Source: Polytrichum commune
Taxonomy: Eukaryota; Streptophyta; Polytrichopsida; Polytrichales; Polytrichaceae
Assembly (NCBI GenBank): GCA_950295325.1
Contig: OX485806.1
Location: 57,469,169 to 57,533,168, forward strand
Direction of reading: 5' to 3'
DNA: 64,000 nt
Below, piece by piece: positions 9,934 through 63,235 of this stretch. Positions within the stretch are counted from its first letter, which is position 1. Each line of letters opens with the position of its first letter. A model generated the notes under the pieces. It saw only the letters and a program-made list of their open reading frames with translations. It searched no databases and had not been told where the DNA came from. The translations under genes were made by a program, and so were the position numbers.

Positions 9934-9981
9934 TTTATCTATTCCAAGTTCAAGACATAGCCAATTAAGTCCAATTCCCCC

Positions 9982-10281
9982 GGGAAACTGAAGTATGTGA
10001 GCATAGCTCAGAGAGCGGAGAGCGGAGATTGGAGAGCGGAGATTTTCAAATTTGTTGGGTAATTATAGGAGAAGTCGTGCCTATTTCCGTGGATTTTAGT
10101 GATAGTTTGTCTTCAATTTGTCGGAAAGGCACCCCATTCCCGTGTAAATAAGAACCGAACTTTGTTCGGTGAACCAACCGAACCTATAAGCGTGGAAGAT
10201 AGTGTTTGTTATCAAACATCTTATAGTCTAGGTTTCGAATACGTTTATATTAAATTAGGGCTTACGTCATCAATTGAAGCT
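9982..10281 (+). repeat. MULE copy 1 left terminal inverted repeat
   Basis: About 300 bp that align nearly base for base, inverted, with 57333-57613 of MULE copy 2, from GGGAAACTG through the GAGCGGAGAGCGGAGA run, CCTATTTCCGTGG, ATTAAATTAGGG and CAATTGAA. It is closer to that end than to the right end of its own element. A 61-codon ORF (10099-10284) inside it is not credible. Between 10282 and 10570 there is only the 3' flank of the cargo gene. Confidence 0.85.
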
Positions 10282-10570
10282 TAACACAAACATTAAAGCG
10301 GTATGGAATGTGGCCAAGAGTTAAAGTTGAACACAAACATTCAAACCATTCAAAGTCACTCACAACCTTACCATCTCTCAAGTACAACTGAAGAAGACAA
10401 CCTTCAAAGTATATTCAACCTGTCCACCCGAACCTATCTAGAGAATTGAAATCAAACACTAACGAACTTCAATGAGGGATTGAATAAGGTTTGCAAAAGC
10501 CACATAAAAATTCAAGAAATAAACTTATAAAGTAAAATCAATACAAACAAAATGGAGGTCCGAGGCGTAG

Positions 10571-12744
10571 TCAAGAACTAGGACTACCATGTCTATCACT
10601 ATCCTCGCCCTCCTCCGCTTCTACGTCTAAATACTCCTCTACTAGTTTGTTGAAAGGTCGGATGCGACTGGGAGGTGGAGACGGAGCTTCCGCCAAAAGA
10701 TTGGCAAGCCCGGCCGCATAGCAAGGGAGCTCAAATGTCTTGGAAGGACTCGAACTCATACATGCGTTCTCCCTTGGCGCTCTGAACCAAAAAGCAATAA
10801 GATTAGAAACAAGATGACACACGAAGATGGGAAAATCACTAGAAGGCAAACATGACAAAACATAGAAAGAAAACTTACACAAAGAAAACCGAATGCTCGT
10901 TTGGTCATCTTCTTAGGCGGATCAAACATAGAGGTGGACGGTGGGGCATTTGAGCGGGAGGGTTGCGAAGGTTGGTTTTCATGCATGGGGAGTAGGATCG
11001 CATTGAAAATCACTGGGTCACTCTCAAGGGCCACAATATGCCGCTCAATGAAGCGACACGCTGTAATTGAACCACCTACACCACAATGCCAGTCCATAAC
11101 AACATCATTCTTATCTGTGAGAGTAGCAAAAATGATAGAGAAGAAAACTTGATGCTTCTCGCGAGCACCTCTCCAGGGTATTCCATCACTGCGCATCGTC
11201 TGGCTCTTCTCATCGGTGAAAGCATTCAACCATCCATCTCGCTTGTCGCGCACCTCTCCATAAGGAGTGCCCGAAACACCATGGGCACAAGGGGGACCCC
11301 GGAGTGACACCCGGGACTTGTGGCGCCGTTGGTGAGAGGGCCCAAGTGATCCTAGTGTGGGTGAGGGCCCCGGGCGTTGGGAACGCCTCCCACCCACAAA
11401 GACTAGGAGGCATGAGGGTGAGGCCATGAGCTATGCGTAGCTCATGGCGTGGTGATTCTAGAATGCTCAAGATCACCTCAATCGGAGGTGTGAGCTAGGA
11501 GTTATGGCCATTTGAGTGGGGTGCTGTCCCGGGACAGCGCCCTGGTACAGCAGTGCCTGGGAGTGATTCCCGGGACTGCCAAGGTTCAAACAGGCATAAC
11601 TTCCTCAAGCCTTGCCCGAATGGGGCAAGCAAGGAGTCCATCGGCATCTACGTGAAGCGTAGATGAGGATGGAGTGGTTGGTTGTTATGATCAGACATCA
11701 TACAAGGAAGTTATGATGGTCTGAAGCTGCTGGGGGGGTTCTAGGCCCAGCAGCTAAGGGAAAATGTCCACTTGGCCCCAACTCTTGGTAGAAAGACAAG
11801 AGGTTGGTTGGCGGTGGGGTAGGGGCTCCGTGTAGAGTCCTAGAGGCTTATATGGGTGAGGTGGTGTGGCCTCACCCACCCGAGGCCGAACGGCACGGCC
11901 TCCATGGGCTTTGGCCCATTGTGAGGCCATAGTTGCCTAGTATGGTTCGGGTTGTTGTAGTGTTGCTCCGGCAATGCGATGATCAACATAAGATGGGACT
12001 TCCATGGATGGAAGTCCACATCGAAGAAATGGGTTACCGATTAAGGGGTGAGTCCCGAAAGCAAAGTAGGAGGGTTGGTTCCCCTCCTTTGAATTATATG
12101 GTCCGGGGTAAGAGGAGCTAACCATTAGCATGGCGGTATGCGAAGGGTTAGCGCTCGTAACCTTTGCTAGAAAGGAAAATTGGCAAGATTGCTAAGGGGG
12201 CTAGCAAGGGTTGCGACATCGCTGGAGGTAGTAACCATACTCCTTGGCGGCCTCCGGTCGCATTTTCAGAACGGAGTTAACACGAATAAGAACCTTGATA
12301 CTGAATTTACGAGTCTGAAAAAATGAAAACGATTCCATAAGAATCGGAAGAAGAGAAATGAAAAAAAAAACAAAACAAAAATGAACTAGAAGAGGGATAG
12401 TTGCTTACCACTCCAGAGGGGTCCACCGGAGATTGGAGGTCCAAATCAGCCATACCGAACCAATCTTCGGCGACGTAGAAGTCGTAAGTGTGAGCCCAAT
12501 CGAAAATAAGCCTAGAAACACTTGCACTCGCACAATGGACAATAACAAGGACGTCATGATCATAGAGGTTAGATTTTGCAAAAGCAAAAAGACAGTCATA
12601 GTAAGAGTCATGGAGCTTGTTCCAATCAGGAACATCCGTGGAGATGTTGGGCACCGGCAAATTTTCGGGAATGTCCGCGAAGAATAAATCCAGTCCCTTG
12701 TGATGTGTAGAGGAGGTGTTCACACGGGAACGACCTTCCCCGGC
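10571..12744 (-). pseudogene. Cargo gene exons J-L: beta-class DNA methyltransferase-like segment
   Basis: Exon J has GLDLFFADIPEN (about residues 907-918), where N4/N6 DNA methyltransferases have DLxxxDPPYN (motif IV). A predicted strand then follows, ending DVLVIVHC. Exon K ends its conserved part with DVVMDWHCGVGGS (about 1079-1091) and RHIVALESD, matching the motif I pattern D-x-F-x-G-x-G followed by R...G-x-E-x-D. Motif IV before motif I is the beta-class order. The DPPY core is degenerate here (DIPE; DVPE in copy 2), so catalysis is doubtful even for an intact copy, unless IPE/VPE is tolerated. Exon L is a short acidic tail. Family knowledge supports the motif order; the assignment itself is inference from motifs read by eye. 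Confidence 0.5.
11244..12218 (+). mobile_element. Solo LTR (975 bp) inserted in exon K of the cargo gene, target duplication TCGCT
   Basis: TGTCGCGCACCTC to GGGTTGCGACA, flanked by TCGCT at 11239-11243 and 12219-12223. Removing it joins the exon in frame (Leu-Gln-Arg to Asp-Gly-Trp), matching copy 2 at about 52060-52090. It therefore inserted after the MULE did and disabled the gene. Confidence 0.93.
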
Positions 12745-12841
12745 CTGCAATGAAAAATCCATGAGAAAAAATGAAGAAGGAAAAAAAAACGCAAACCAAA
12801 TGGAAAGGAGTTTGATGAATGCCAATAAAAAACATACAAAC

Positions 12842-13846
12842 ATTGGCAATGAACTCTTGGATGTGCGTATATGCCGGGAGGGGACCTCCTGCAAGGTCGC
12901 AATCGAGCATGAGTTGTACCATGTCCACATTTTCGATGAGGAAAAACGTGGTAGGTGAATCCGAAGAGGTGGCACTCGTATCCAAGAGGGCGGCCTTCCT
13001 CTTGCGAGGCAAGGAGAGAAGAGAAGTGCCACTGTGAGAAGGAGTAGCAACAGTTGGTGGCCGACATGCGGAGGGAATGATAGAGGGGGCAGCTGATGGA
13101 GCAATGGAGGGAGTGCTAGGTGGACTTTGTAGTAAGGTGGGTGGCTGAACGGGGGTCTTTGAGGCGGACCGAGTTAATTGAGTGCCGGTATTCTTACCTC
13201 TGCCCTTTGCCTTGGGTGCCTTGGGCGGTGGAGGAGGAAGCTCAACGATGTCGGGCTCCTCATCCGGGACAATGTTCACCTCGGGAGCACTACGCACAAG
13301 GCTAGTAAAAGAGGTTTTTCTTCCGCAGGCACAAATCCTCCAGAACAATCCAAGTACCATCCCCCAGCTTGCAAGTGAGACTGCGGAAACTTGGCAACTT
13401 GATTGGGCGTAAAAACACAAAGATCGGAGTTGACATCGATCCAATGTAAAAGGAAAGTTGGCAAGCACGAAGAAGGCAATGCATTCTTCACAACGAGCTC
13501 ACGGTGAATGAACCTGAAAAATGAAGAACATGAGAAACAAAGACGGTGGGGAAAAGGAAATGAAACAAAAACAACATGTACTCAAAGAAAACTCAGAATA
13601 TTACCGGTAAGCGACGCGTTTGATTGATATGGGGTCGTCCCTAAAATCCATGAGATCAAGGCCTTTGACAAATTTCAGATCTCCCTTATCGTCAAAATAA
13701 ACCAAAAATGCCTTGTCCCAAAGAATCAGCCTCCAATGCTCAACATAATCTCCCGGTTGAAAAATATCTTCCGTGGAACTCCAATCGATTTCAACGGAAC
13801 ACACATTCTCAAATGAAGCAATCTCAGCCTCAACCCCCTTCTCCAA
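12842..13846 (-). pseudogene. Cargo gene exons H-I: central conserved segment and Pro/Ser-rich linker
   Basis: Exon H (13846-13605) has EHWRLILWDKA and a YFDDKGDLKF segment. Exon I (13513-12842) has a conserved GGWYLDCSGGFVP, then a low-complexity Pro/Ser/Thr-rich linker and the basic motif LPRKRKAALLD. A 1-nt deletion near 13313 shifts the frame; restoring it makes the exon length fit the flanking phases. The same exons recur in copy 2 (50344-50938), and exon I in copy 3 (63236-63668). I recognise no named family; GGWYLDC is the most useful search tag. Confidence 0.75.
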
Positions 13847-13949
13847 CTATGACAGAAAAGGAAAATAGTAAGAAAAGAACAACTCAATAACCTACAAACA
13901 TGAACTTAGACTCTAGACACATAAAAAAAAACCTTAGACATGACAAAAA

Positions 13950-16078
13950 GACCGAGAGGGTGTCCCACTCATACCGAGAGGGTGTCCCAGTCAAACATTC
14001 TATATTTCTAAACAAGAAATAAACATATTAGCTGAATAACCTGATATCAGATTCTAGTGACGAGCCAAATAAATCCACATATGAGCACCACATATTAGCA
14101 TCACTTATGCACATTAGAAAACTGGACCGGGAAATCAGACCATATTTTCAAGTTCTCACCCAAAATGACCACAGTGACAAATTCTCAAAATTTGAAATTC
14201 CCTTATTAGCTAAATAAGCACAAATCAGATTCTAGTCTTGAGCCTCAAAACATACATTTCTCCACCCTATCGGAACCGAGAGGGTGTCCCGGTCCTACTA
14301 TAATGACCATTTTCTCAAATTTTGAAAATCAGAATTACCTATATGGGCTAAATAAGCACAAATAGATTGTAGTCATGAGCCATTAATTTCCACATCTCTC
14401 CACCCTCTCGGAACCGAGAGGGTGTCCCAGTCTAACCACCTAACCATATTTTGAACTTTTCAAAATGAACACTACCTAAATGGGCCCATTATCTATATGA
14501 CCATAACTTTTGAAAATCAGAATTACCTATATGAACTCAATATCCACATATCAGATTCTAGTCTTGAGAACCCAAATTCCACATCTAGGCACCCACTAAT
14601 ACCAAAATGACCTTAGTATCAAAACTTGAAATTCCCTTATTGGCTCAAGAAGCACAAATCAGATTCTAGTATTGAGCCTCAAATATATACATTTATCCAC
14701 CCGGTCGGAACCGAGAGGGTGTCCCGTCCTACTAGACTAACCATATTTTAAAGTTTGGAAACCTAAAATACCTATATTGGCTTCATAACCACATATCAGA
14801 TTCCAGTCATGAGAACCCCAAATCCAAATTTCGGAAAACACTAAAATAAAAAATGACCATATTTTCGAGTTCTGAAAATAAGAATTACCTATATTGGCTC
14901 AATATGCACAAGTCAGATTCTACTCTCGAGCCTAAGATTTCCACATTTCTCAACCCTCTCGGAACCGAGAGGGTGTCCCTGTCCTACTATTTTCACCAAA
15001 TTTTGAACTTTTGAAAATCAGAATTACATATATTGGCTAAATAATCACCAACCAGATTCTAGTCATGAGCCATTAATTTCCACACCTCTCCACCCTCTCG
15101 GAACCGAGAGGGTGTCCCTGTCTAACTATCCTAACCACAATTTCAACTTTGGAAAATCAAAACTACCTATATGGGCCCATTTTCCACAAATCAGATTTTA
15201 GTCATGAGCACAAAATTTCCACATTTGTCCACCCTCTCGGAACCGAGAGGGTGTCCCTGTCCTACTATAATGACCATATTTTAAACATTTAAAAATCAAA
15301 ACTACCTATATGGGTCAATTATCCACAAATCAGATTCTAGTGAATGGCCTCAAATTTCCACATTTCTCCACCCTCTCGGAAACGAGAGGGTGTCCCAGTC
15401 TAACTATCCGAACCATATTTTCAACTTTTGAAAATCTAAACTACCTATATGGTCCCATTATCCACAAATCATATTCTAGTCATGAGCCTAAAATTTCCAC
15501 ATTTGTCCACCCTCTCGGAACCGAAAGGGTGTCCCTGTCCTACCATTTTCACCATATTTTCATCTTTTAAAAACCAGAATTACCTATATTGGCTAAATAA
15601 GCACAAACCAGATTTTAGTCATGAGCCATTAATTTCCGAGAGGGTGTCCCAGTCTAACTAACCTAACCATATTTTGAACTTGTAAAAATCAGAACTACCT
15701 ATATGGGCCCATTATCCAAAAATCAGATTCTAGACATGAGCCTAATATTTCCATATTTCTCCACCCTCTCGGAACCGAGAGGGTGTCCCAGAATAACTAA
15801 CCTAACCATATTTTGAACTTTTGAAAATCAAAACTACCTATATGGGCCCATTATCCACAAGTCAGAATCTATTCTTGAGCCTGATATTTCCACATTTCTC
15901 CACCCTCTCGGAACCGAGAGGGTGTCCTAGTCCTTCTACAATGACCATGTTTTCAACTTTTGAAAATCTAAAGTACCTATATTGGCTCAATATCCACATT
16001 TCAGATTATAGTCTTGAGCCTAAGATATCCACATTTTCTCCACCCTCTCGGAACCGAGAGGGTGTCCTAGTCCTTGGT
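13950..16078. repeat. Palindrome array 1 in intron G-H, about 137-bp unit
   Basis: Roughly fifteen units, each with CCCTCTCGGAACCGAGAGGG (9-bp arms, AA centre) followed by TGTCCC and then an AT-rich spacer with shared words such as CAGATTCTAGTCATGAGCC and CTACCTATATGGGCCCATT. Unit spacing is mostly 125-140 bp. The left edge holds partial units. The array lies wholly within the intron from 16124 to 13847 of the cargo gene. ORFs crossing it (PLGSERV/TLSEPRG) are translations of the repeat. Confidence 0.95.
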
Positions 16079-16124
16079 ATGAAGATTTCAAATAATAGAA
16101 AGAGGAAAAAAACAAGAGTTGCAC

Positions 16125-17587
16125 CTGCGCCCAGAAAGAAGCTTTGTTGAGCCAGTTTTCGAGGACTTTCTCCCTAAGAGGGAGAGACGACGGAAATCTA
16201 TTATTTTCCTTGACATCGGCAGGGGAGTTCCACCAACGAAGCCACTTGGCCTTGAAATGGGCATCCACATGTGCGGTAGCCACCTTTTGAAGTTTTTCGA
16301 TTGTCATATCAGGGACGAGGAAGGTGGAGAAATGACGGTCAATCTGCCACATAGATATGAAGTAAGAATAGAGATAAGTAAGAAAGAGATATCAAGCACG
16401 ACATGATGTAAATGAGAATGAAAGAATAAATGAAAACACAAGGATAAGAGAGACACCTCGTTGAAGAAATCATCCTCGTTGTCCTTGTGGGCAACGGAAA
16501 TGAACTTCTCAAAGTTCCGAGAACGAATGCTTTTGATCAACCTATCCTGGGCTTTTGACATAATATCCCAAATTTCTGTCGAAGATCGGAGAGCCTCGGG
16601 AGTGGCCTCACGGTATAACCTCGCAGCCGTATCAGCCGCGTTGGATATCTCTCTCTGAAACAAACACAAAGAAGGATAAGGAACGCACATAAACATGGGA
16701 GAAGGAAAGTCAAGGAAAGTTTAAACAAACTTTACCTTGTATAAGAATTTGACGAAGACATCTAATGTCAGGGGATACCAAGTAAGAGTCTTCTCCATTT
16801 TGGACTCGCACATCTTGTAGTCCGAAACGGAAAGGAGGTCTTTGAACTCCTCTAGCCTCATCTTTCCAAACGTGCGAATGCGAAGTAACTTGACGGGGAG
16901 GTTATCCTTAGCATGGTCATGCTCCATGGACCTATAACAAACAAAATGTTAGAGGGAAAAATGAGAACAAACAAAAGAGAATATCAGCAACATTAAATGT
17001 TGAACTCACTAGTTGATGTCATTCATAGCATTAAGGAAGAGGGCGGTGCAATTTCTTGGATCCACCAAAATACAATCAGCCCATATATGCCAATCTTTGT
17101 CCAAAAGGTGATGCTTGTTGATGTGCCTCCACCAAGTTGTCAACCGAAGGTTCCCCTCCCACACGTAGAACATTTTGCCAACAAAGTTAGCAAGGTCGGG
17201 GTCTCTTTCGAGAATGGCATCAAACTCTGCATTGGCCTCTTGCCATAATGGACTCCAGGAGGACTTGACGTCATCGGAGACATGAAGGACCTCATCGAGG
17301 TTGTTATATAGAGAGATGTACAAAGCGCGGTCACCATCACGGTATCCCATGACGAACTCATTCTCCAAACGAGAAACATCAACGTCGTTGATTGGCCGAA
17401 CAAGAGGAAGACTCCGCAAGCGACACAATGGAATAGAGAAACGAGACTTCCCAAGAGGCTTGAATCGCACCCGCTGAATCACGGTGTTAGAGTCTTGCTT
17501 CTGCGATCTCCGAACCTTGAGCTCGGCTTCATCTGGATTCTCCTCATCAAGAGGTCGAATGCAGTCGGAAACAAGCGGAACATCAAT
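16125..17587 (-). pseudogene. Cargo gene exons D-G: ParB/sulfiredoxin-like segment and helical region
   Basis: Exon D (17587-17010, 192 codons plus 2 nt) has SLPLVRPINDVDVSRLENEF (about residues 247-266), MGYRDGD soon after, and FYVWEGNLRLTTWW (about 328-341), then DCILVDPRN. This resembles the ParB-like nuclease/sulfiredoxin fold (VRPxN...L...F...G...xDGNHRLxA). Exons E (16931-16736), F (16654-16457) and G (16343-16125) are helix-rich with no motif I recognise. The D/E join gives TAG between Asn and Ser, consistent with a Trp codon lost by transition. The ParB reading is inference; the exon structure is well supported. Confidence 0.5.
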
Positions 17588-17690
17588 CTACAAGAGAAGA
17601 GGAGGGAAGCATCAGAAAAAAACTATAAGACGAAACAAACAAGAAGCAGAGGCAAACAAAAATACAACAGAATTTCAACGAATCAAACAC

Positions 17691-17807
17691 CTCTCCCTGT
17701 GAGATGTCATCCAGTGCCCTATGGCAATCTTCACGAGGCGACAATAGAATATGCCCATCCGCCATGTATTGGACACGCGCCACAGTAAGGGCCAAAGCCT
17801 GCGATGC
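17691..17807 (-). pseudogene. Cargo gene exon C (39 codons)
   Basis: CAG at 17810-17808 and GTGTTT at 17690 bound a phase-0 exon beginning Ala-Ser-Gln-Ala and ending Ile-Ser-Gln-Gly-Glu. It lies between array 2 (upstream) and exon D. Probably helical; no function assigned. Confidence 0.7.
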
Positions 17808-17974
17808 CTGTATGCACAAAATACATCGAGATGATGCCCCAGTCCTTTTAGAAATGCACCCTTTAACCTTATACAACGCACTCCATACACATACAAATAA
17901 TCCATACACTTCAAACCTAGCCTATTGAATCCGAAAATCTGAAATAAGAATAGAGTGAAGAGCCCATATAAACA

Positions 17975-19990
17975 CCATTTCTCCACCATCTCGGAACCGA
18001 TAGGGTGTCCCTGTCCTACTAAAGTAACCTTAAACCACATATATGATTCTTGTGATGAGCCTAGAAATCCACAATTCTCCAGCCTCTCGGAACCGAGAGG
18101 GTGACCTAGTCTAACAAACCAGACCATATTTTCAACTTTCGGAAATCAGAAATACCTTTAAAGGCTATATAACCACATATAAGATTCTAGTGTTGGGCCT
18201 CAAATTTCCACATTTCTCCCCCTCTAGGAACCGAGAGGACATACACGCAGTCTAATTAATTCAAAACTAACTACATGGGCCCATTATCCACAAATCAGAT
18301 TCTAGTCATGAGCCTAAAATTTCCACATTTCACCACCCTCTCGGTTCCGAGAGGGTGACCATGTCCTACTATAATGACCATAGTCTGAACTAATGAAAAT
18401 CAAAACTACCTATATTGGCGCATTATCCACATTTCAGATTCTAGCCATGAGCCTAAAAAGTCCACATTTCTCCACCCTCTCGGAACCGAGAGGGTGTCCC
18501 CTTCCTACTATAATGACCATATTTTGAGCATATGAAAATCAATACATCCTATATTGGCCCATTATCCAAAAATCATATTCTATTCATGAGCCTAAAATTT
18601 CCACATTTCACCACCCTCTCGGAACCGAGAGGGTGTCCCAGTCTAACTACCCTTACCATATATTCAAATTTTGAAAATCAAAACTACCTATATGGGCCCA
18701 TTATCCACAAATCAGATTCTAGCCATGAGCCTAAAAAGTCCACATTTCTCCACCCTCTCGGAACCGAGAGGTGTCCCCTTCCTACTATAATGACCATATA
18801 TTGACCATATGAAAATAAATACATCCTATATTGGCCCAATATCCACAAATCAGATTCTAGTCATGAGCCTAAAATTTCCACATTTCTCCACCCTCTCGGA
18901 ACCGAGAGGGTGTCCCTGTCCTACTATAATGACCATATTTTGACCATATGAAAATCAAAATACCTATATGGGCCCTCAATCCACATTTCAGATTCTAGTC
19001 ATGAGCCTCCAAAATCCACAAATCTCCACTCTCTCGGAACCGAGAGGGTGTCCCTGTCCTACTATAATGACCATGTTTTAAACATTTAAAATTCAAATCT
19101 ACCTATATGGGCCCATTATCCACAAATCAGATTCTAGTGAAGGGCCTCAAATTTCCACATTTCTCCACCCTCTCGGAATCGAGAGGGTGTCTCTGTCCTA
19201 CTATAATGACCATATTTTGACATTATGAAAATCAAAACTACCTATATGGGCCCGTTATCCACAAATCAGATTCTAGTGAAGGGCCTCACATTTCCACATT
19301 TCTCCACCCTCTCGGAACCGAGAGGGTGTCCCAGTCTAACTATCCTAACCATATTTTCAACTTTTGAAAATCAAAACTACCTATATGGTCCCATTATCCA
19401 CAAATCAGATTCTAGTCATAAGCCTAAAAACTCCACATTTCTCCACCCTCTCGGAACCGAGAGGGTGTCCCTGTCCTACCATATTGACCATATTATCAAC
19501 TTTTCAAATTCAAAACTACCTATATGGGCTCCATTCCCACATTTCAGATTCTACTCTAGAGAACCCGACATCCACATTTCGGCACCAACCTTCTCCTAAT
19601 CTGACCATTTTTTGAACTTTCGAAAATCAGAAGTTCGAATATATGCTCTATAAGCACAAATCTGATTCTAGTGACGAGCCTCAATAATCCAAATTTCGAA
19701 TCAAAACTACCTATATTGGCTCGATATTCACATATCAGATTCTAGTCATGAGAACCCAACATCCACATTTCGGCACCCACTTCTCCTAATCTGACCTTAT
19801 TTTGAACTTTCGAAAATCAGAATTTCATATATTTGCTCAATAAGGACAAATCTGGTTCTAGTGATGAGCCTCAACAATCCACATTTCTCCACCCTCTCGG
19901 AACCGAGAGGGTGTCCTTGTCCTACCATGTTGACCATATTATCAACTTTTCAAATTCAAAACTACCTATATGGACTCCATATCCACATTT
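17975..19990. repeat. Palindrome array 2 in intron B-C, about 138-bp unit
   Basis: About thirteen units of the same family as array 1, with the CCCTCTCGGAACCGAGAGGG core at regular spacing (for example about 18473, 18611, 18890, 19164, 19303 and 19445). One unit near 18335 has TT in the centre. Irregular units without the palindrome occur at 19550-19860. It fills the intron between 20043 and 17808. Confidence 0.95.
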
Positions 19991-20043
19991 CAGATTCCAG
20001 TCTTGAGAAATCAACATTCAGAATATCACAAGTAGACATGCAC

Positions 20044-20124
20044 CTGAGAATCCAGAACTTCCAACCTCTCACGAATGCGCTCCTCCTTGCTTCGGCCGGC
20101 ATATAGTGGAGGCGCCTCCGAAGA
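20044..20124 (-). pseudogene. Cargo gene exon B (27 codons)
   Basis: TAG at 20127-20125 and GTGCAT at 20043 bound a phase-0 exon rich in Glu, Arg and Lys (EERIRERLEVL), likely helical or coiled-coil. Confidence 0.65.
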
Positions 20125-20326
20125 CTAATCTAGGTTAGACTCAAGGGTTCCTTGGTGTGGTGGATGGTTCCTAGGAGCTAGAGGAATCTGGATACTTTGG
20201 CCTATGTACCTCACCCCAAAATGGTATGGGCCGAAAGCCTATGTCCTATGTGCCGTGTTTGGGAGGTGGCGGCCCCGCACAACTTCGTGCTTAGCTTATA
20301 GCCTATTCGTGGTGCATAATTTTTGA

Positions 20327-20346
20327 CCCTCTCGGTTCCGAGAGGG
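20327..20346. repeat. Isolated palindrome in intron A-B
   Basis: A single perfect CCCTCTCGGTTCCGAGAGGG (TT centre) outside any array, in the first intron of the cargo gene, about 190 bp from the donor of exon A. Confidence 0.9.
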
Positions 20347-20514
20347 TTTGGTTCTATATTCCCCTCTAACCAACTTAAACAAAATAAGAACTTCCAATAT
20401 TTCACATGTTGGTCGTTAAGAATCACATTACATAACTCAATATCAAATTCCATCTTTTAAATATCCTAAATGTATATATGAGCCTAGTGCGTAATACGCT
20501 AAACCCAAACTTAC

Positions 20515-20880
20515 TGTGCCAATTGAGTCCTCTTCTATCTCCTCCTCAGATTCGCTTGAATCCGAATCGCTTCGATGCTCGCTCTCTCCCATCGATGGTT
20601 CGCGCGATCCACTCTGCTCCCGTTCTTCCTCTATCCGTTCCAATTCCTCGTTCCTGCTAGACGTCCATGTCTCTGCTTCTCCCCCCGTCTTGCTCAAATC
20701 TGTTGGTGGTTCACTTCCCTGTGTACAAGATTGCTCCTTCTTCCTAAGCTCTCTCCGTCGCCTCTGCTTTGAATTGCTAAAACTCGTCCCTCCCTTTCTT
20801 TTCTTCCTCTTCCTTCCAGGATCGACTGTGGAGACTTGACTATTTCCTCGTTCCTTCATGTGTGCGTCCCGGCGTCCCAA
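20515..20880 (-). pseudogene. Cargo gene exon A: N-terminal basic/acidic region
   Basis: ATG at 20880 gives 122 codons to a GTAAGT donor at 20514. It is Lys/Arg-rich first (GRKRKKRKGG, a likely nuclear localisation signal) and then Ser/Glu/Asp-rich. This start was chosen because it is the first ATG of the frame, close to the divergent transposase gene. No domain is recognised. Confidence 0.6.
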
Positions 20881-21182
20881 TAATCGTCTCTCTCCTATAC
20901 TCTTCTATTAGGGCATCGCACTCACATAATAACTCGTTCCTTTGCTTGTATTGTTCTTTATATTGCCAGTGCTTCAGGGTTAGGGTTTCCCTCTTTTTGG
21001 CAGCCATCCCTTGTTTTCCCTTTTTGGCATCCTCCCCCTACTCCTTTTTTATATACATTAGTTCCTCGAATTCTGTTCCTTCGGTGATGCACATGGTGAC
21101 ATCACAACGTTTGTCTTCACCATTCTTCTTCCTTATAAATCTTTGCATCTTTGTTCATTTACGTTTCTGTTTTTTTGCCTTC
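20881..21182. promoter_or_regulatory. Divergent intergenic region between cargo gene and transposase
   Basis: About 300 bp separate the chosen starts of the two divergent genes. It is pyrimidine-rich on the plus strand, with a TTTATATACATT stretch near 21047 and CTTATAAATCT near 21134 that could serve as TATA boxes for the plus-strand gene. No experimental start is known, and the transposase frame stays open upstream to 20862. Confidence 0.4.
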
Positions 21183-22641
21183 ATGGCTTCCAGCTCAATG
21201 GCCGAACTTCGTTCCAATGCCAACGATGTCCCTATTCTCTTCCCCATTGGTGCACAGGGTATTGCTGTTGTCTCGGAGCTTCATCTTAGCGTTAGGTTCT
21301 CTCTTCAAGTTAATACAATATGGGTAGATCGTGAGATCTTCAATGATATTGGATTGCTCGTTCATACATTCCATGAGCCCTCCAAGGTAACTAACAATGG
21401 CAATGTAGTGTGGGAGCTTGGCGCAGGAAAGTATAGGGTTTGGGGCTGGCCAGATTCTCGGATGGGAGTGTCAACAGAACTCCATGCTCCTCTTCGATCT
21501 TCCACTGCTGACTTTAGCACACCTCCGGTAGTAAGTGTTAAGACCGAGCCTGACATAGACAACGTTGTAGACTTGTCTGATTCTTCGACTGAAGATGTAT
21601 CTATGAGGAAGGTTGATGTTCATGATTCCCCTCCTTTGTTTCCCTCTGATTCCTTTGTAACGCCTTCACCTTCTCGCTATGTTCCTTTATCTCCTTCCGT
21701 ACCGTCTACGTCCAAACCTCCTCCACCTATTGTTCAATGTCTTCGTCGTCTAGGTTCTATACTCGGTAGTAAAAGCGTCCTCAAGAAAATAGATTACGAT
21801 AAGATCAAAATCCAAGAGGTTAATCACCTCCCCCCTCGTTTCGATGGTACCCAGTTATTTGTCCTCCCTGCACCAGAAGTCTCTTCATGTCTTTCCAGGG
21901 CCAGGTCCATGGACGGCATGGACAAGCAATATGATGGCCATGTTTGGACGAAGACTCAGACCACCAACATTACAAACGACGTTGGCCTTCTATTTCGTTC
22001 CTCTACCTGTGTTGGCCATCTCCAATGCCAAAACACTTGTTGTGATTTCCTTCAACGCGCCCATCGTATCTCTCATGTCAACGACACGGAATTTGATGGT
22101 TTCACTACTCAGCCTTTCCCTCTCTCTGGCATTGTGCCATCCGGATCTACTCTTGTGTGCAAGATCTGCAAACAGCCTCCCAAATGCATTGCATTTTGCG
22201 AGGCGAAGATTTTCTACGTCCATGGGAAGAATTTCTCCCAAAGAGCCTGCATTCATATCGGAAACCATCAACATCCAGTGAAGGTTGGGGACTGCAGAGA
22301 CAGTCGGAAGCGCATCAATGCTCTTCTCGAGGAGCACGTTGAGCGTACGCCTCAGGCCACGTACAGCAAGATCATCCTTGACGCCAGCAAGGACATTGTT
22401 GGTGAGTTCCTCCTTTCTGAAAATAGTGAGAAACATCGTCTCCTCTCCTTAACAGAGCTCGAACCTGTGTTTGAGAGCTGTAGAGGGTTGAACTCCCCAA
22501 ACCTTCGATCTAAGGTTACCTCTTTCAAATTTTTGCAGAGGTTCGGTGTTATGGATGGCATCGCAAAGCTCCGAGGCGTTAGCAATTGGGCCTACGTCCA
22601 ACGGAACCAATTCTCAGGACAAGGTCACGATGCCGACAAGG

Positions 22642-23868
22642 CAAGGTTGTCTATTGTGTCGTGACGGAGGGTAATCCTGGCATAATGTCGTGCCGTCACG
22701 ACACGTATCCGTCATGACATTATGCCGGATGTTGTCTTTATCCTGACGGACTTGAATTTTACAGATTTTTTTGTGTAATTACATTAACCCAATTCGGACA
22801 CGTAGGATTTACAATGTCCACGTGTGATGACATGTCAGCAAAGTAAAGGTAAAGTGGGGAAAAATTTACTAGAGCCCGTCCGCCCCTGTTCCCGACCCCG
22901 TCCGCTCCGCTCCCAACCCCGTCCGCTCCGCTCCCAACCCCGTACGCCCCGTTCCCAACCCCGTACGCCCCGTTCCCCCCCGTCCGCCCCTCCGTCCGCT
23001 CCCCCGTCCGCCCCAGTTTTTTTTTTTTTTTTTTCCCCCCCCCCTTCCCCGTCCGCCCCAATTTAAAAAAAAAATTCCCCCCCCCTCCGTCCGCCCTCGT
23101 TCCCGACCCCGTCCGCCCCCGTTGCCGACCCAGTCCGCTCCGTTCCCAACCCCGTACGCCCCGTTCCCCCCGTCCGCCCCGTTCCCCCCCGTCCGCGCCC
23201 CGTCCGCCCCTCCATCCGCTCCCCCATCCGCGCCCCGTCCGCCCCTCCATCCGCTCCCCCATCCGCGCCCCGTCCGCTCCCCCATCCGCTCCCCCATCCG
23301 CCCCAGTTTTTTTTTTTTTTTTTTTTTCCCCCCTTCCCCGTCCGCCCTATTTTTTTTATAAAATAAATCCCCCCCCCCGTCCGCTCCGTTCCCAACCTCG
23401 TACGCCCCGTTCCCCCCCGTCCGCCCTCGTCCGCCCCAGTTTTTTTTTTTCTCTTCCCCGTCCGCCCCATTTCAAAAAAAAAAAATTCCCCCCCCCCCGT
23501 CCGCCCCCGTTCCCAACCCCGTCCGCTCCGTTCCCCCCCCCATTCCCACCCCCGTTCCCGACCCCGTCCACTCCGTTCCCCCCCCCACCCTCGTCCCCCG
23601 TCCGCCCCACACCCTCCTTAGTCGTTTTTTACTACTTTGATTTTAACAAAATGGTAAACAAAATGGCAAAATGATTTACCTGGCGCTAGGCATATCCACG
23701 ACCACGTCGGCGTTTTCTGCCACATAGGACGCCACCTTGGCAAGAAGGTAAGTATTTTACCCACCCTAGTCCGTTCCCCCTATGCTGACCCTACGTGGAC
23801 CCTATTTGTCGTGACGGAGGGGTCCGTCACGGCACGACACCGTCATGACGTCGCGATAGACAACCCTG
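22642..23868. mobile_element. hAT-like non-autonomous insertion (1,227 bp), target duplication CGACAAGG
   Basis: CGACAAGG occurs at 22634-22641 and 23869-23876. The ends are CAAGGTTGTCTAT and, inverted, CAGGGTTGTCTAT. An 8-bp duplication with CAGGG-type ends is typical of hAT elements. Subterminal GTCGTGACGGAGGG and CCGTCACG words are repeated in both orientations. There is no transposase. Removing the element and one duplication restores the transposase frame exactly (Asp-Lys-Val-Phe). Confidence 0.85.
22875..23610. repeat. Low-complexity CGTCCGCCCC repeats with poly-T tracts inside the hAT-like element
   Basis: Irregular tandem copies of CCCGTCCGCCCC and GTTCCCAACCCCGTACG, broken by T-runs of about 10-22. 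The minus strand is G-rich with many closely spaced G-runs. The long minus-strand Gly/Arg/Thr ORFs over it are compositional artefacts. Confidence 0.9.
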
Positions 23869-26233
23869 CGACAAGGTGTTCGTCTTCAAGATGTCCGAGG
23901 TTGGTCCTGGAAGCGGGGTGGATTTGGTTCGTCGGATGCAACCGGGTGGGGACCTTGAGAACGCCTGGATTATGTCCGATCACGTCAAGCGGGTCAAAGG
24001 GTGGACCACCATGGCCACTCATGTCTACGATGGGACTTATCAACGGGTCATGACCATTTCATGTTGTGATTTCCAATCGGAGGATAAGGATGCCCAAGTG
24101 CTCTTCTAGCAGAACCTCAACCATGTCATGGCCCGCCACGGTATCCCGCATCCTAACTTTATTGGCTTCATGGCGGACAGTGCGCAAGCCAATTGGAACG
24201 CTGTGCGCATTGTGTATGGTTCAGGAGATCCCAAAGTTCCTATGGAGGGCCGTGAGCGCACTTGTTTTTTCCATTGGAAACAGTCGCTCGAGAAACATAC
24301 GAAATCCTACATAAAGCATGAGTTACAAGACCAACATAGACACCTTTGCCTTCAATATCGCAATGCGTCCTCTATGGCAGAGGCGGAGACTAGGTACCTA
24401 GCTATCAAGTCTTGGTGGGCATCATCGAATTGTACAAGTGAGGACGGTCTCAAGCACCTCCAGCTATGGCTTGCTTTCTGGCACTTCCGCTACCTTCAAT
24501 GGGGTGGTTTCATGGAACTGGTAAATCCCCTTCATGATTCATAATTGTCTTTTACTAGATTTAGTTTCCTCTCTATGTGCTCCCTCTAATACTCCCTCTG
24601 CACTCTCCAATCAGGAAAAGGTTCTGACTCAAGACCAGTTGGCCGAGATGCCGTCGTGCAATCTTGCGGAGTCCGTCCACAACAAGTGGCTTCAGGCCTC
24701 GGGCAACAAGGGTGGAGATTTATACGTGGCTACGGTGGACGACTACATTTGCGCCTTCCTACAAGTTGTTGCATACTACACATTCCTTAAAGGTGGAGTT
24801 GGCGGAGATGGTCCAAGCAAAGAGGAACTCAAGCTCAGGGGTGCTCAACGTCGAGCTCAGCGTACTGGCGACCCCACAGTGTTGCAGAAGGTCTTGCTCG
24901 ACATGCCCGGTGGGGAAGAGTTTTGCACTCGCGATCCACACCTTGAGGGCGCCGAGGTGTTTGGATCGCAGAAACGAAGACCTGATACTCCAATTGGTGA
25001 TGATGGCGAGACCCACCGCCCCGATACCGTGAACTTCTCACGCCCTCGTCCCGGTAAGCGAGTCACTCGATCTCAGCCAGAAATCCTACCTACTATCATT
25101 GAGGAGTGTTCCCCGTCTGTACAAGAGGTTCAAGTGCCTTCACCTGCAGGATTTGGTTTCCATCGTGTCACCGCAGTGCAAGAAACCAAAGTAGATGTCT
25201 CTCTTTGGCATATTGCCCGCATACCCTATACATCAGGGAAGTCTTGTTGGGCTAATCATGCGGGCACGAAGAAGAAGTGCTCTGCAAGAATCGTCACCAA
25301 TAATAAGAGCGTCCCTGCGCCTATCTACACCGGTATGTGACATCATTACAAACTCCAATCGATGAAGCGCACGGACTTCGTCTTCTGCCCCGACGACATA
25401 GAGCGTTGCGTAAAGGGCCCTCGTCGGAAATGGGTCATGCCGTTCTCTGATGGTCAAGAGAAACCTCCCATTCCCCCAATCTGGCCTGTCAAGATTGGTA
25501 CCAACCTCACCCGCTCGGAGATCTTCGCACTTGAGAACGCAGGTTTTCAACTCCCACCAAAGGAGCGCATCACACCGACTCGACTCTTCACCAACTCCGC
25601 TCCCCCACTGGATATGTCTGGAATCCGTATTCCGGAATTTCCAGACTTCATCCCTCCGACAAGATTGTCCAAGGTTGTTCGGCGATCCAGCAGCGCACCT
25701 TCTGCGAAGCAGAGGCAGATGGTTGCCTCTGCTGAAGCTATGCATGGTACTGTTTTGAAGCTAATTATGATCCCTCAACCGGGATTTGGCTGCATTATCA
25801 CACTGCAGTCCAAGTCAGAACCCCAACCCCCCATATACCAGGTGACAATGAGTTCTTATCCAGAGTGCAATTGCGCGAACTTCGTGGATATGATTTCCAA
25901 GTTCGGCCGCAAACGCAATCCTTATCAGAATTGTAAGCATTTGTATTACATCTTCATCAAGGTTTCCAATTTGGATCCGGAAGTGAATTTGTTCATTCAC
26001 GCCCCGACATTTAGCTTCAACGAAGTCAAACTCATCCTCGAAGGGGGTCTTTTGACACAACCTACTTCCTAGAATTCCGCTCAGCCTAGCACTACATTAG
26101 GCTATGATATATGTGTCCATTTATGGACCAACCCTAAACCAATAATTGATTGATATAATAAAGGTATAATCTCAATGATTATTTTTATTTACTTCAAAAA
26201 TTTGTATCACAATGCTTCCTATGTCTATCAATT

Positions 26234-26722
26234 CTATTTCCGATTTGCATACTTCTTGGATAATTCCGATGGAGGTGGACCCGGTCGAAGCAAATCCCTA
26301 TAAGATACTGTTTTGTCTCTAATTCGATCCTTCAGCGGAAGATGATGCGGAGGCAAGGCTCTCATCCTTTGGCGTAATGAAAGAAACTTCGAAGATTCGC
26401 CTTCCACCTTCACCTCCTGGTCCGTTTCCTTCGAATTGTCTTCATCCAAATCAGCGTCCTTCTCCGGCACATCTTCCTGCCTTTGTTCTTTTTTCTCATA
26501 TTGTTTCTGCTCCTCCTGCACCCTCCACCTCCATGCTTGTGTAGACTGCAAAAATGGAGTCAGGTCGTAGTCATCACTAGCTCGATTTCCAGGCCTAAAC
26601 TCAAATTCCGGTGATGAATTAACGGGAATATGGAGATCTCCTAGACTTCTAATTTCCTTCTCCCACCCTAATCCAGCAAACATGTCTCTCTTTTCTCCCA
26701 TTATGTGCAAGTGTATATACAA
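26234..26722 (-). CDS. Hypothetical small protein at the transposase end of the MULE (162 aa)
   Basis: Open frame of 162 codons, convergent with the transposase, about 160 bp from its stop. It is charged: a Glu/Lys/Gln-rich centre (EEQKQYEKKEQRQE), then LSLRQRMRALPPHH and a basic C-terminus ending KKYANRK. No signal peptide, membrane segment or catalytic motif. It may be an accessory MULE protein; I recognise no family, and it could still be a chance frame. Confidence 0.45.
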   Translation of the reverse strand: MYIHLHIMGEKRDMFAGLGWEKEIRSLGDLHIPVNSSPEFEFRPGNRASDDYDLTPFLQSTQAWRWRVQEEQKQYEKKEQRQEDVPEKDADLDEDNSKETDQEVKVEGESSKFLSLRQRMRALPPHHLPLKDRIRDKTVSYRDLLRPGPPPSELSKKYANRK

Positions 26723-27099
26723 TCATGGTGGATATGAGTCCAATTTATAGTCTATTCAGCCACAAACAATAATTGCTAAAGTCCAACCTATAGAATAGAC
26801 TCACATATAAGATAAAGAAAAAATGATGAATAACAACAAAGGAAGTTTATTATTTTGATTCCTTTGTATTTTGATTGACCCATTCTTCATTTATACCAAT
26901 CTCAAAAGATCCAATTTCATTGATTATTCCTTGTAATCATCCTTGGTTTTAATAATTCTTCAATTATACCAACTTCGATATACTTATTTTTGTTTGTTCT
27001 TTCTTGGGATCACCATTGATGTTTATCATATACTTATACGTTTTATTTTGATGCTATTTCATTGTAGCACTTCCCGGGTCCGAAATGTAGTGAGACATT

Positions 27100-27338
27100 T
27101 TCAAATATAGGGCCTTTTGAGTTAGATGTGGACCTATACATTCCACGGAAATAGGTCACTATTTTTGCTATTTTTAGCAGATTCTAGAATATTCGAAGCA
27201 TATTCTAGACTATTTTTTAAAAATCTAAATTTGGTCTTAAAAGTTTGCTAAATTTAATCACTCAATGCTCTCCGCTCTTCACATCACCGCTCTAAGCTCT
27301 TCGCTCCCCGCTCTACGCACACGTACAAGTGTCGTCCC
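27100..27338 (-). repeat. MULE copy 1 right terminal inverted repeat (diverged)
   Basis: Reading inward from 27338 on the minus strand: GGGACGACACTTGTACGTGTGCG, GAGCGG-rich words, AATTTAGATTTT, then CCTATTTCCGTGGAA. The outer 50 bp and these blocks match the left end, but the rest does not, so the two ends are asymmetric. The inner limit is approximate. Confidence 0.7.
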
Positions 27339-49575: not shown

Positions 49576-50295
49576 GTATAGATAGGTTCAATTAGTTGGT
49601 CGTTAGGTTGAACTAGTTTGTTTGTGGTCCAAAATTTTACCCTTTCAGAACCAAGAGGGTCTTGGTTTATAAATGTAGGAGCAGATTTTGACCATTATGG
49701 TTGTTAGCTTGTAGGTGTGCATAGGTTCAACTAGTTGGTCTTATCGTTCAACTAGTTTGTTTGTGGTCCAAAATTTGACCCTCTCGAAACCGAGAGGGTC
49801 TTGGTGTAGAAATGTAGGACCAGATTTTGCACATTTAGGTTGTTAGCTTGTGGGTATGGATAGGTTGAACTAGTTGGTCATTAGGTTGAACTAGTTTGTT
49901 TGTGGTCCAGAATTTTACCCTCTCGGAACCGAGAGGGTCCTGGTTAAGAAATGTAGGAGCAGATTTTGAACATTATGGTTGTTAGCTTGTAGGTGTGCAT
50001 AGGTTCAACTAGTTGGTCTTATCGTTCAACTAGTTTGTTTGTGGTCCAGAATTTGACCCTCTCGGAACCGAAAGGGTCTTCGTGTAGAAATGTAGGACCA
50101 GATTTTGCACATTTAGGTTGTTAACTTGTGGGTATGAATAGGTTCAATTAGTTGGTCGTTAGGTTGAATTAGTTTGTTTGTAGTCCAAAATTTTACCCTC
50201 TCGGAACCGAGAGGGTCTTGGTTTGTTAGTGGTTGGTTGTTAGGTTCAACTAGTTTGTTTGTGGTCCAAAACTTTACCCTCTCGGAATTTTACCC
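49576..50295. repeat. Palindrome array 3, about 136-bp unit
   Basis: Six units with CCCTCTCGGAACCGAGAGGG or near variants (about 49648, 49780, 49916, 50056, 50193, 50277). The spacer carries GGTTCAACTAGTTGGT and TAGTTTGTTTGTGGTCC and is unrelated to that of arrays 1 and 2. It occupies the position of intron G-H. Confidence 0.92.
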
Positions 50296-50938
50296 TCTTT
50301 AGAGTCTAACCACATTTCTAACTTTCGGTTTCTCTCTTCTCAGTTGGAGAAGGGAGTTGAGGATGAGATAGCGTCATTTGAAAATGAATGCTCCATCGAC
50401 ATCGACTAGACTTCTACGGAAGATCTTCTGCAACCTGCTCATTTTGTGGAGCATTGGAGGCTCATTTTGTAGGACAAGGCTTACCGAGTATATTTTGATG
50501 AGAAGGGTGACTTGAAGTTCACCAAAGGGCTCAATCTCTTGGAGTTCAAGGAAGGATCCATTGCTATCAAGCGCGTTGCTTATCGGTAAACATCCTCGTT
50601 TTTCTTTTCTCCCTCTTATCTTCGTTTCTTTTCATTTTTTCCAATCCTTTTTTTTCCCATTTTCTTTACTTTGTACGTACATTCATCGAGAGCTTGTCGT
50701 GAAGAATGTTCTTCCTTCTTCGTCGTTGCCATTATTCCTTCAAGATTGGATCGATGACAATTCAAATCTTTGTGTGTACACGCCTATGCAACTTGTAAAA
50801 TTTCCATGCGTGCATTTGGTGGCGGGTGGTTGGTACTTGAATTGTTATCGTGGGTTCGTTCCCGACGTAGAGGAACCCCTCTACAACAGCCTCGCTTCCT
50901 CTGCTCCTGAGGTTATTGAATTGGAGGAAGAGCCAGAT

Positions 50939-51479
50939 TGTCGCGCACCTCTCCATGAGGAGTGCCCGAAACACCATGGACACAAGGGGGACCCCGGAGT
51001 GCCACCCGGGACTTGTGACGCCGTTGGTGAGAGGGCCCAAGTGTTCCTAGTGAGGGTGAGGGCCCCGGGCGTTGGGAATGTCTCCCACCCACGGAGACTA
51101 GGAGGCATGAGGGTAAGGCCATGAGCTATGCGTAGATCATGGCGTGGTGATTTTGGAATGCTCAAGATTACCTCAAGCAGAGGTGTGAGCTAGGAGTTAT
51201 GGCCATTTGAGTGGGGCGCTGTCTCGGGACAGCGCCCTGGTACAGCAGTGCCTGGGAGTGATTCCCGGGACTGCCAAGGTTCAAACAAGCATAACTTCCT
51301 CAAGACTTGCCCAAATGGGACAAGTGAGGAGTCCATCGGTATCTACGTGAAGCGTAGATGAAGATGAAATGGTTGCTTGTTATGATCAGACATCATACAA
51401 GGAAGTTATGATGGTCTGAAGCTGCTAGGGGGGTTCTAGGCCCAGCAGCTAAAGGAAAATGTCCACTTGGCCCCAACTC
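50939..51479 (+). mobile_element. Truncated LTR inside cargo gene copy 2
   Basis: TGTCGCGCACC start right after the exon I sequence (GAAGAGCCAGAT), then family consensus to TTGGCCCCAACTC, where it stops against intronic sequence. There is no second target duplication, so a deletion removed the LTR end and the rest of exon I. Confidence 0.85.
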
Positions 51480-52240
51480 ATTCATTTCATATGTTGCACC
51501 GGTTGTTTTTATCTTACATTTGCATTGGATTTTCTCTTTGCAGGTTGGAGCGCGCTGTACTTGTCCCAATACGAAGCCTAAGGTTCACACAGGGCTAGAT
51601 CCATTGTTTGCAGATGTGCCGGAGAACCTCCGTGTGCCTAGGATCTCCTCATCATCGTCAGATATTCCTTATTGGAACAAACGTTCTTTCACGTACTTTG
51701 AGGTTCTCTTTGCCTTCGCAAGCGCCAACCTTCATGACGATGGCGTTCTTGTGTTTGCACACGCCGCTGATCCGGAAGTGTATAGATCAATTCACAACTG
51801 GGCACATACAGAGGACTTTTACGTTGCCGAAGATTGGTTTGGCATGAATGACTTTGATCTTTAATCGCCCACTAATCCTTCTAAGTTGGTAATTGCTATC
51901 TAACCTCATCTTTCTTTATTCTTGTCTTTTTTTCCATTACATTTTTTAGATTCCTAAATCTACCCTTCGCATTTCTTTCAGACTTGCAAGTTTTTCATCA
52001 AGTTGCTTGTCTGTAATGAATCTGTTCTGAATGTCCGGACCTCGGACTTCGAGGACATGGGTTATAATTTCAAGAGAGATGGTTGGCTCAACAGTTTCGC
52101 CGATGCGAAGAACCAATCGATGAGGGAAGACGAGGTGCCTTGGAGGGATGCTCGTGAAAAGCGCCCCGAGTTTTTTTCCATCTTTTTTTCCGCCCTTACG
52201 GACAAGGACAATATTATCATAGATTGACAATGTGGCGTTG

Positions 52241-52359
52241 GTTGGTTTTCCATCTCTTTGTTTTTTTTTCTCTGTTCTGTAATGCTTCGTTTTCTTTGCT
52301 ACTTGCTCCATTTTCCATTCATTTCCTTATGCTCGGTTTCTCGCATCTATTTCTTCTAG
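52241..52359 (+). other. Intron present only in cargo copy 2
   Basis: GTTGGTTTTCC...TTCTTCTAG splits the glycine motif (CGVG | GS). In copy 1 the same codons are continuous at about 11070-11095. Phase 1, 119 nt. Confidence 0.8.
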
Positions 52360-52897
52360 GAGGTTCCGTCATTGCATGCCGCTCCATTCAACGACATATT
52401 GTGGCGCTTGAGTCAGACATCGATATCTACAAGTCCATCCTACTCCCCTTGCGTGAGCCTGAGCAAGAACACACTTCGCAGCATGTTGCTGCTCAACGAG
52501 GCTCTGTTTTTGCTCCTCCTCCTCGGAAGACGGCGAAGCGCAATTTTGATTTGCTGTGTGCGTAAGTTCGCTTTTGGCTTCTTACTGGCTTTCTTGCATT
52601 TTTTCCCTCTCGGATTTGAATTTTTGGCTTGTACTCATGTTTGTTGTTTCCTCTTCCTATATGTGCAGAGTTCAAAATGCAAGCCCAATTCATGTCCTTC
52701 ATGCGGACATGTTTTCAACCCCTTCGACGACATTCGAGCTCCCTTCCTTTGACGCAGACCTTGCCCACCTTTTGGCAGAGGCATCGTCCCCACCTCCTGC
52801 TCGCATACGTCCTTTCAACAAACTAGTATTGGATTTCCTAGACATAGAAGCAGAGCAGGGTGAAGAAAGAAATATACATGGTGGCCCAAGTTGTTGA

Positions 52898-53194
52898 CTG
52901 CGCCTCATACGTTTCGAACCTCCATCTAATATGTATTATTTATGTTCAAGTTTTTCTTAAGTTCATTTGTTGACTTCCATGTGCCTTTGCAAACCCTATT
53001 CAACTCCTTCAACTAGTTCGTTTATGGGATGAAATACTTTATATGTTCACCCTAGGTATATATAACCAGATTTTACAGTTTACGGTTGTTGGTTTGTTTG
53101 TTTGGATAGGTTCACCTGGTTGGTTGTAAGCTTGTAGGTGTGTATAGGTTCAACTACTTAGTTGTTAAGTTCAACTAGTTTCTTTGGGGCTGGA
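52898..53194. other. 3' flank of cargo gene copy 2
   Basis: No gene. GGTTCAACTA-type words anticipate the arrays that follow. Confidence 0.5.
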
Positions 53195-53830
53195 ATTTCA
53201 CCCTCTCGGAACCGAGAGGGTCTTATTGTAGGAATATAGGACCACATTGTCCAGTTCAAGGTTCTTTGCTAGTATGTATGTGTACGTTCAACTACTTTGT
53301 TTGTAGGCTGGAATTTCACCCTCTCGATACCGAGAGGGTCTTGGACTATTAATGTATGTCCACATTTTGAAATTATAAATTGTTGACGTCTATGTGTACA
53401 TTGGTTGAACTAGTTGTTTGATTGGTTCAAGTGGTTAGTTTTTTTGCTCCTATATTACCCTCTCGGAACCGAGAGGGTCTCAGACACTTAATGTATGACC
53501 ACATTCTACAATTTCAGATTGAAATCTACTTTTCGTGGATAGTTTCAACTACTTCGTTGGTGGGTTCAACTAGTTAGTTTTGGGGTACAAGTGGTTTGTG
53601 TTTCAGCTGGAATTTGACCCTCTTGGGATTGAGTAGGTCTTTCTGTAGTATTGGAGGACCATATTTTGTACTTTAAGGTTGGAAGCTTGTATGTGTACTT
53701 AAGTTGAACTAGTTGGTTGATAGGCTATACATGTAGGATGTGTGCTTGTGTGCATAGTTCCAACTACATGCTTGGTAGGATCAACTAGTTTGTATTTTGG
53801 CTGGAATTAGTTACTCTCGGAACCGAGAAG
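53195..53830. repeat. Palindrome array 4
   Basis: About five units; perfect palindromes include 53201-53220, later ones are mutated. The spacer holds TTCAACTA words and TAGGACCACATT. Downstream to 54289 I see only AT-rich single-copy-looking sequence. Confidence 0.88.
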
Positions 53831-63231: not shown

Positions 63232-63235
63232 TATC

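Follow-up and report, generated by a model that had tools for sequence, protein, structure and literature searches.

To our knowledge, transposon anti-silencing with defined target arrays is known mainly from the VANDALs. The VANC targets are described as tandem repeats in VANC and VANB introns and upstream of VANA, which differ between related elements (PMC5735166). We analysed a 64,000-nucleotide stretch of the moss Polytrichum commune (the window; C4:57469169-57533168 in a genome of 408 Mb and 64 contigs), which contains a complete transposon, copy A, with a transposase gene and a spliced cargo gene. The predicted product of the cargo gene has about 1,000 residues. Its N-terminal domain bears ParB-like motifs, and a middle part joins this to a domain at the C-terminus that is like the beta-class amino-methyltransferases. 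We read this product, with a probability of roughly 0.5, as a factor for self-recognition and anti-silencing that is built on a divergent methylase fold. The cargo protein would recognise arrays of a 20-bp palindrome that sit in the introns of its gene and in the region separating the two divergent genes. Occupying or modifying the arrays would shield the element from silencing by the host or label it as self. We infer that the protein would bind the palindromes and that binding would oppose silencing, and the same holds for the methylation of any target.

The transposon and its cargo gene

Copy A is flanked by a perfect 9-bp target duplication (AATTCCCCC, at 9973-9981 and 27339-27347), and its termini are imperfect inverted repeats rich in GAGCGG repeats. 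A relative on contig C2 could be aligned with copy A as far as both ends. Mutator-like elements are described with a target duplication of 8-11 bp (PMC6446971), and the lengths found here were 9 bp in copy A, a perfect 10 bp in a relative on contig C1 and an imperfect 10 bp in an element on contig C4. By its target duplication the element is a Mutator-like DNA transposon. Neither the window transposase pieces nor two relatives had a Pfam match at E-values up to 1, and none of 44 transposase homologs carried a Pfam domain or a functional name.

An earlier reading of the window from its letters (the sequence-only reading) had taken the gene for the cargo of a transposon, and the inverted repeats and the 9-bp duplication do enclose it. 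The peptides it had named were found where it had placed them (VRPIND and FYVWEGNLRL in exon D, FFADIPEN in exon J, DWHCGVGG and RHIVALESD in exon K2). The transposase lies on the plus strand and the cargo on the minus strand, and the features of copy A are as follows.

9982..27338, no strand: copy A, complete transposon of 17,357 bp, with imperfect terminal inverted repeats (GGGA...GAGCGG repeats) and a 9-bp target duplication
21183..26072, plus strand: transposase gene of copy A, divergent to the cargo and split by an insert
about 22642-23868: insert splitting the transposase, missing from the C2 and C3 relatives
17986..20346, no strand: palindrome array 2, between cargo exon C and the transposase
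17807-10571, minus strand: cargo gene, exons C to L
17691..17807, minus strand: cargo exon C, the first exon recognised, with GT-AG borders; true 5' end undefined
17010..17587, minus strand: cargo exon D, with ParB-like motifs IPLCRL, VRPIND and FYVWEGNLRL (17141-17170), conserved in Adiantum
16125..16931, minus strand: cargo exons E (16931-16736), F (16654-16457) and G (16343-16125)
14265..16062, no strand: palindrome array 1, within the intron that separates exons G and H, with 139-bp units
12842..13846, minus strand: cargo exons H (13846-13605) and I (13513-12842), with a frame break within exon I
12409..12744, minus strand: cargo exon J, with FFADIPEN and the motif IV variant DIPE at 12675-12664
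10571..12314, minus strand: cargo exons K and L, with exon K split by an insert and the stop codon at 10573-10571
11242..12218, no strand: long terminal repeat (LTR)-like insert in exon K, with 10 matching stretches elsewhere in the window and missing from the C2 relative
11094-11071, minus strand: motif I, DWHCGVGG, in exon K2, which also holds RHIVALESD

Low-complexity CCCCGTCCGCC arrays with CGTGACGGA-type ends were noted at 22890-23610, within the insert that splits the transposase. The cargo of the window copy is damaged. Its D/E join reads TAG, where a 98% copy reads TGG, exon I has the frame break, and exon K is split by the LTR-like insert.

Copies of the cargo were found throughout the genome. 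For exon D, 150 of 1,271 candidate matches were scored, with identity down to 59%, and for exon J 150 of 916. Both sets were spread over all 7 large contigs, with frames mostly open among the 150 scored for each exon. Groups of matches on separate contigs had identical scores in both lists, which suggests recent bursts. The ratio of nonsynonymous to synonymous divergence (dN/dS) was measured between copies, using pairs with dS between 0.1 and 1.5. The median was 0.24 for exon D (342 of 435 pairs, 30 copies) and 0.21 for exon J (50 of 105 pairs among 15 copies, namely the window copy and 14 chosen from the match list), and at this level of comparison the cargo was shown to be under purifying selection. 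The observation behind the sequence-only reading is confirmed as real and is larger than it had described. It is not a product of chance, because 150 matches each were scored for exons D and J and dN/dS between copies was low.

Homologs of the cargo in the protein database came only from the fern Adiantum nelumboides (P0001-P0013). Among these, P0010 bears a Retrotrans_gag domain (PF03732), and P0001 and P0003 have a weak N-terminal LEA_4 match; each of these may be a gene-model fusion. Upstream of the ParB-like part of the C1 element lies a protein-kinase-like stretch (C1:9657599-9658760; PF00069, E = 1.6e-6, 28.2 bits against a cut-off of 31.7). No such stretch was noticed in the window or the C2 frames, where no dedicated search was made.

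The two halves of the cargo product

The methylase-like half of the window copy alone had no relevant Pfam match and gave weak matches to a family of phage methylases (E = 0.0043) and to DpnA in the PDB (E = 0.028). The same genome contains two other members of the cargo family, L004 and L005, as open frames of 567 residues, and these exceeded the curated cut-off of PF01555 (N6_N4_Mtase), with 35.3 bits for L004 and 32.5 for L005 against 26.7. The E-values of these two matches were 1.1e-7 and 1.5e-8. L005 covered profile positions 1-216 of 221, and the best stretch of L004 covered 163-216. A six-member family profile matched DpnA in the PDB at E = 3.7e-5 and CcrM at 0.012 (profile 1-205 on chain 32-249). 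Aligned by hhalign with a three-member phage methylase profile, the family profile gave E = 4.4e-5 and a probability of 69%, for the motif I part only, against 0.1% for a ParB profile used as control. The Adiantum members showed weak methylase matches in Pfam, NCBIfam and PHROGs, the best PHROG match being that of P0006 (E = 0.004).

In the cargo, motif IV precedes motif I, which is the permuted, or beta, order, and the S-adenosylmethionine-binding GxG is present. Most of the 14 copies that were read had kept motif I in the form DWxCGxGGS. These matches support the view that the C-terminal half is a divergent relative of the beta-class, permuted N4/N6 methylases, as the sequence-only reading had proposed.

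Motif IV does not have the canonical catalytic form (D/S/N)PP(Y/F/W). Among 15 copies it read DIPE in 9, DVPE in 4, DMPE in 1 and DILE in 1, so that D[IV]PE, which is without the aromatic residue of DPPY, was found in 13 of 15. The longer string D[IVM]PENL was present in 14 of 15 copies with codons differing at silent positions, and the variant is therefore constrained. Deeper relatives carried DIPY (L005), DIPD (L004), DLPF (P0011) and DLPT (P0003). Since DIPY and DLPF are among them, an aromatic fourth residue may be ancestral and may have been lost in the window clade. The variant may mean altered or absent catalysis, which had been suggested from the two copies in the window. That part of the suggestion may hold, while decay of single copies does not explain the variant, which is conserved in 13 of 15 copies with dN/dS of about 0.2.

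Alternatively, the cargo could be an active amino-methyltransferase that marks the element as self by depositing N6-methyladenine (6mA) or N4-methylcytosine (4mC) on it, in the palindromes or close to them. The whole-domain PF01555 match of L005 with its DIPY, the retained DWxCGxGGS in most of the 14 copies and DLPF in one Adiantum member would fit this, as would the bdelloid rotifers, in which a bacterial N6_N4 methylase is described as active and as acting on transposons (PMC8885841). However, the window clade has D[IV]PE, lacking the DPPY aromatic, in 13 of 15 copies, and L004 has DIPD. In the same description of the rotifer enzyme, a change of SPPY to APPA abolishes activity (PMC8885841). 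We therefore regard deposition of such a mark as unlikely.

We disregarded further matches to PF01555 on two small contigs, C10 and C12, as these are probably contaminants. On C12 (61 kb) the matching gene, L002, is a phage-type ParB-methylase gene that probably contaminates the assembly, and a viral contig in IMG/VR carries a 75% relative. A different gene was noted at C3:36418993-36421821 (L046:1-2829). It has a ParB-like stretch of the DGQHS type and a frame of 471 residues with a methylase-like motif I at its end. It had no Pfam match, and it adjoins a window-type element whose stretch past exon I was not found.

In the N-terminal half, I[PH]LC, R, GY and MF.[VI]W[ED]GN were conserved across 14 members (8 from this genome and 6 from the fern). 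What we take to be the GxHR motif of ParB/Srx-like proteins reads GNHR in 24 of 30 copies from this genome (the window copy, which has GNLR, counted) and in the 6 aligned Adiantum rows, and GNHP in the C1 element. A resemblance of I[PH]LC, VRP and GNHR to ParB motifs is possible.

Palindrome arrays and the role of the cargo

The 20-bp palindrome CCCTCTCGG(AA/TT)CCGAGAGGG occurred at 51 sites in the window with up to 4 mismatches, 25 in copy A and 26 around a second copy, copy B, with none elsewhere. The sites belong to degenerate units, 139 and 123 bp long, that are repeated in tandem, and those of copy B lie both upstream and downstream of its exons. Genome-wide, there were 1,947 exact sites of the window type and none of the reversed pattern; the exact palindrome was absent from the viral contigs searched. 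Among 50 listed sites two clusters were seen, one including the exon D match at C1:16461491 and the other about 10 kb from the exon J match at C1:24606369. All 30 exon-D loci that are the nearest relatives of the window copy, its own locus counted, had at least one window-type site (up to 3 mismatches, 1.5 kb flanks), and 19 of the 30 had exact sites.

The C2 relative (63% identity in exon D and 88% in exon J) has an open transposase and open recognised cargo exons. It carried 29 sites of a different palindrome, AGGCCTCGGATCCGAGGCCT, of which 27 were exact, and no window-type site. Genome-wide, AGGCCTCGGATCCGAGGCCT was found at 2,137 sites and its reversed control at none. Of five listed AGGCCTCGGATCCGAGGCCT places, grouped by eye, two were no more than about 3 kb away from an exon D or J in the match lists and three had no listed exon near, the lists of exon D and J matches being incomplete. 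The deeper C1 element carried a third palindrome, GTGCGC..GCGCAC with outer arms, at six sites between its genes (two imperfect), mostly 102-105 bp apart. By comparison of their sequences, related elements were shown to carry differing palindromes in internal arrays.

Conservation within units was measured with alignments anchored outside the palindrome. The palindrome and the rest of the unit scored 0.972 and 0.862 in copy A, 0.977 and 0.873 in C3 (a 98% relative, not independent), and 0.995 and 0.856, and 1.000 and 0.865, in the two C2 arrays, respectively. In these 4 of the 5 arrays tested, the palindrome was the most conserved 20-bp window. The 139-bp array of copy B gave no usable units for this comparison.

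The features of copy B and of a partial third copy are as follows.

50344..52896, plus strand: copy B, cargo exons H to L (the 3' part of the gene), with the motif IV variant DVPE at 51613-51624
49640..56324, no strand: palindrome arrays of copy B, 26 sites with up to 4 mismatches, in 139- and 123-bp units
57333..57613, plus strand: terminal region of copy B, with GCTCTCCGCTC repeats as at the copy A end
63212..63751, minus strand: partial third copy, exon I region

In copy B the peptide at 51604-51627 (plus strand) is LFADVPEN. No exon D of this copy turned up in the rest of the window, and the left end of the copy is undefined. Exons H, J and K of copy B contain 4 in-frame stops, 3 replacing tryptophan and 1 replacing glutamine. 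All four (50344-52240) fit C-to-T changes on either strand, as expected from methylation-driven decay. A CACTA-type transposon lies at 28014-31628 on the minus strand, with Transposase_21 (PF02992, E = 3.1e-54) and a sub-threshold DUF4216 match.

In its boldest form, which we put forward tentatively, the anti-silencing reading has a transposon lineage turning a bacterial-type amino-methyltransferase into a means of sequence-specific self-recognition. Each subfamily's protein would be matched to its own 20-bp palindrome and, by writing a mark other than 5-methylcytosine or by reading with the methylase fold, would exempt the element from silencing; the arms-race logic of VANC would then have been reached independently.

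Several results weigh against the anti-silencing reading. The VANC domains DUF1985 and DUF287 had no Pfam match in the cargo at E-values up to 1. In the 123-bp array of copy B the palindrome scored 0.93 and the spacer 0.945 (5 units; 32 of 50 other windows were as high). The 75-bp array of a C7 family member contained just a half site, and a member at C2:37.56 Mb had no array within the 2.5 kb read. The C1 element has an in-frame stop within its ParB-like part, and dN/dS against the five nearest copies was 0.8-1.6 or undefined, as for recent neutral decay after insertion. The ParB fold also found no support. With ParBc (PF02195), none of the 14 members matched at E-values up to 10, the best chance match being to the RuBisCO small chain (0.0031). 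A PDB search with the ParB-like part returned no ParB and three unrelated matches at E = 0.36 or worse. Aligned by hhalign with four phage ParBs it gave 0.5%, against 0.2% for an unrelated control. AlphaFold models were unusable, with a pLDDT (predicted local distance difference test) of 40 for window exon D and 34 for Adiantum P0003. The ParB domain that the sequence-only reading had assigned thus received no backing from Pfam, the PDB, profile-profile alignment or AlphaFold, and the motif resemblance stays. Of the pairing of ParB with a methylase, the methylase part was supported and the ParB fold was supported by none of these tests; likewise, in the profile and structure comparison that it had proposed, N6_N4_Mtase was matched when relatives were included and ParB/Srx was not.

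The palindromes could bind the transposase instead, which would likewise tell against an anti-silencing role. The arrays would then be transposase binding sites, or replication or hairpin features, and the cargo would aid transposition through integration choice or a DNA-bound complex. Arrays do lie between the two genes, and further iterated repeats occur at the element ends. However, the large arrays occupy a cargo intron and the intergenic region and are not at the ends, which bear a different repeat, GAGCGG. We hold a transposition role to be doubtful. Far less probable is a captured gene fragment that hitch-hikes without function for the transposon. Gene capture by transposons is described as frequent (PMC13317346) and the window copies are damaged, but dN/dS between copies was 0.24 and 0.21, frames were mostly open among the 150 scored matches per exon, and collinear fern proteins exist. 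We reject this pure passenger for the low dN/dS and, with hardly any probability left to it, a host gene with repeat-rich introns near a transposon by chance, which the multi-exon structure might suggest, but which is at odds with matches on all 7 large contigs and with element ends whose target duplications enclose both genes in a multi-copy element.

Comparison with known systems

The anti-silencing reading places the cargo nearest to the VANDAL/Hiun elements of Arabidopsis with VANC. Both are Mutator-like elements with at least two genes, and in both, as far as the VANDAL accounts describe it, motif arrays lie in cargo introns and upstream of the transposase and vary between relatives (PMC5735166; PMC10398659). 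This layout was found here, and two further family copies did not fit it. In contrast, VANDALs are described as lacking terminal inverted repeats (PMC6446971), which copy A has. The moss cargo further differs in its methylase-like domain, and its motifs are 20-bp palindromes. Because no VANC domain was found in it, the cargo would act like VANC without being a member of that family.

With the beta-class N6/N4 methylases (PF01555; M1.HpyAVI/DpnA and CcrM) the cargo family shares the whole-domain match of L005, the order of motif IV before motif I and the profile matches to both structures. It differs in having D[IV]PE, DIPD or DIPY and not DPPY, in its large N-terminal extension and in being borne by a plant transposon. 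The phage ParB-methylase fusions (L002, L073 and L074) likewise begin with a ParB-like part and end with a beta-class methylase, whereas about 500 residues separate the parts in the plant protein and its ParB homology is not significant. The Adiantum nelumboides proteins P0001-P0013 are homologs, with P0001-P0003 collinear over their length and carrying FYVWEGNHR and a methylase-like C-terminus. They differ at about 24-34% identity and in a motif IV of DLPT or DLPF. In the open-licence literature, no description of the present system was recognised among the top matches listed.

The N4CMT of bdelloid rotifers is, like the cargo, a eukaryotic bacterial-type PF01555 methylase linked to transposons (PMC8885841). 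N4CMT contains SPPY together with a chromodomain, and its gene is described as acquired horizontally and maintained by selection (PMC8885841), whereas the moss gene rides on the transposon itself. The cargo would bring a transposon-borne relative of the bacterial-type amino-methylases into the discussion of 6mA and 4mC in plant DNA. If the anti-silencing reading is true, it would be a second system of this sort, on a methylase fold, with protein and palindrome variants in one genome that make co-evolution directly testable, and it could be a source of new sequence-specific epigenome-editing proteins. Sequence-specific anti-silencing systems encoded by transposons are already known, and a relative of the bacterial-type methylases in that role would be new.

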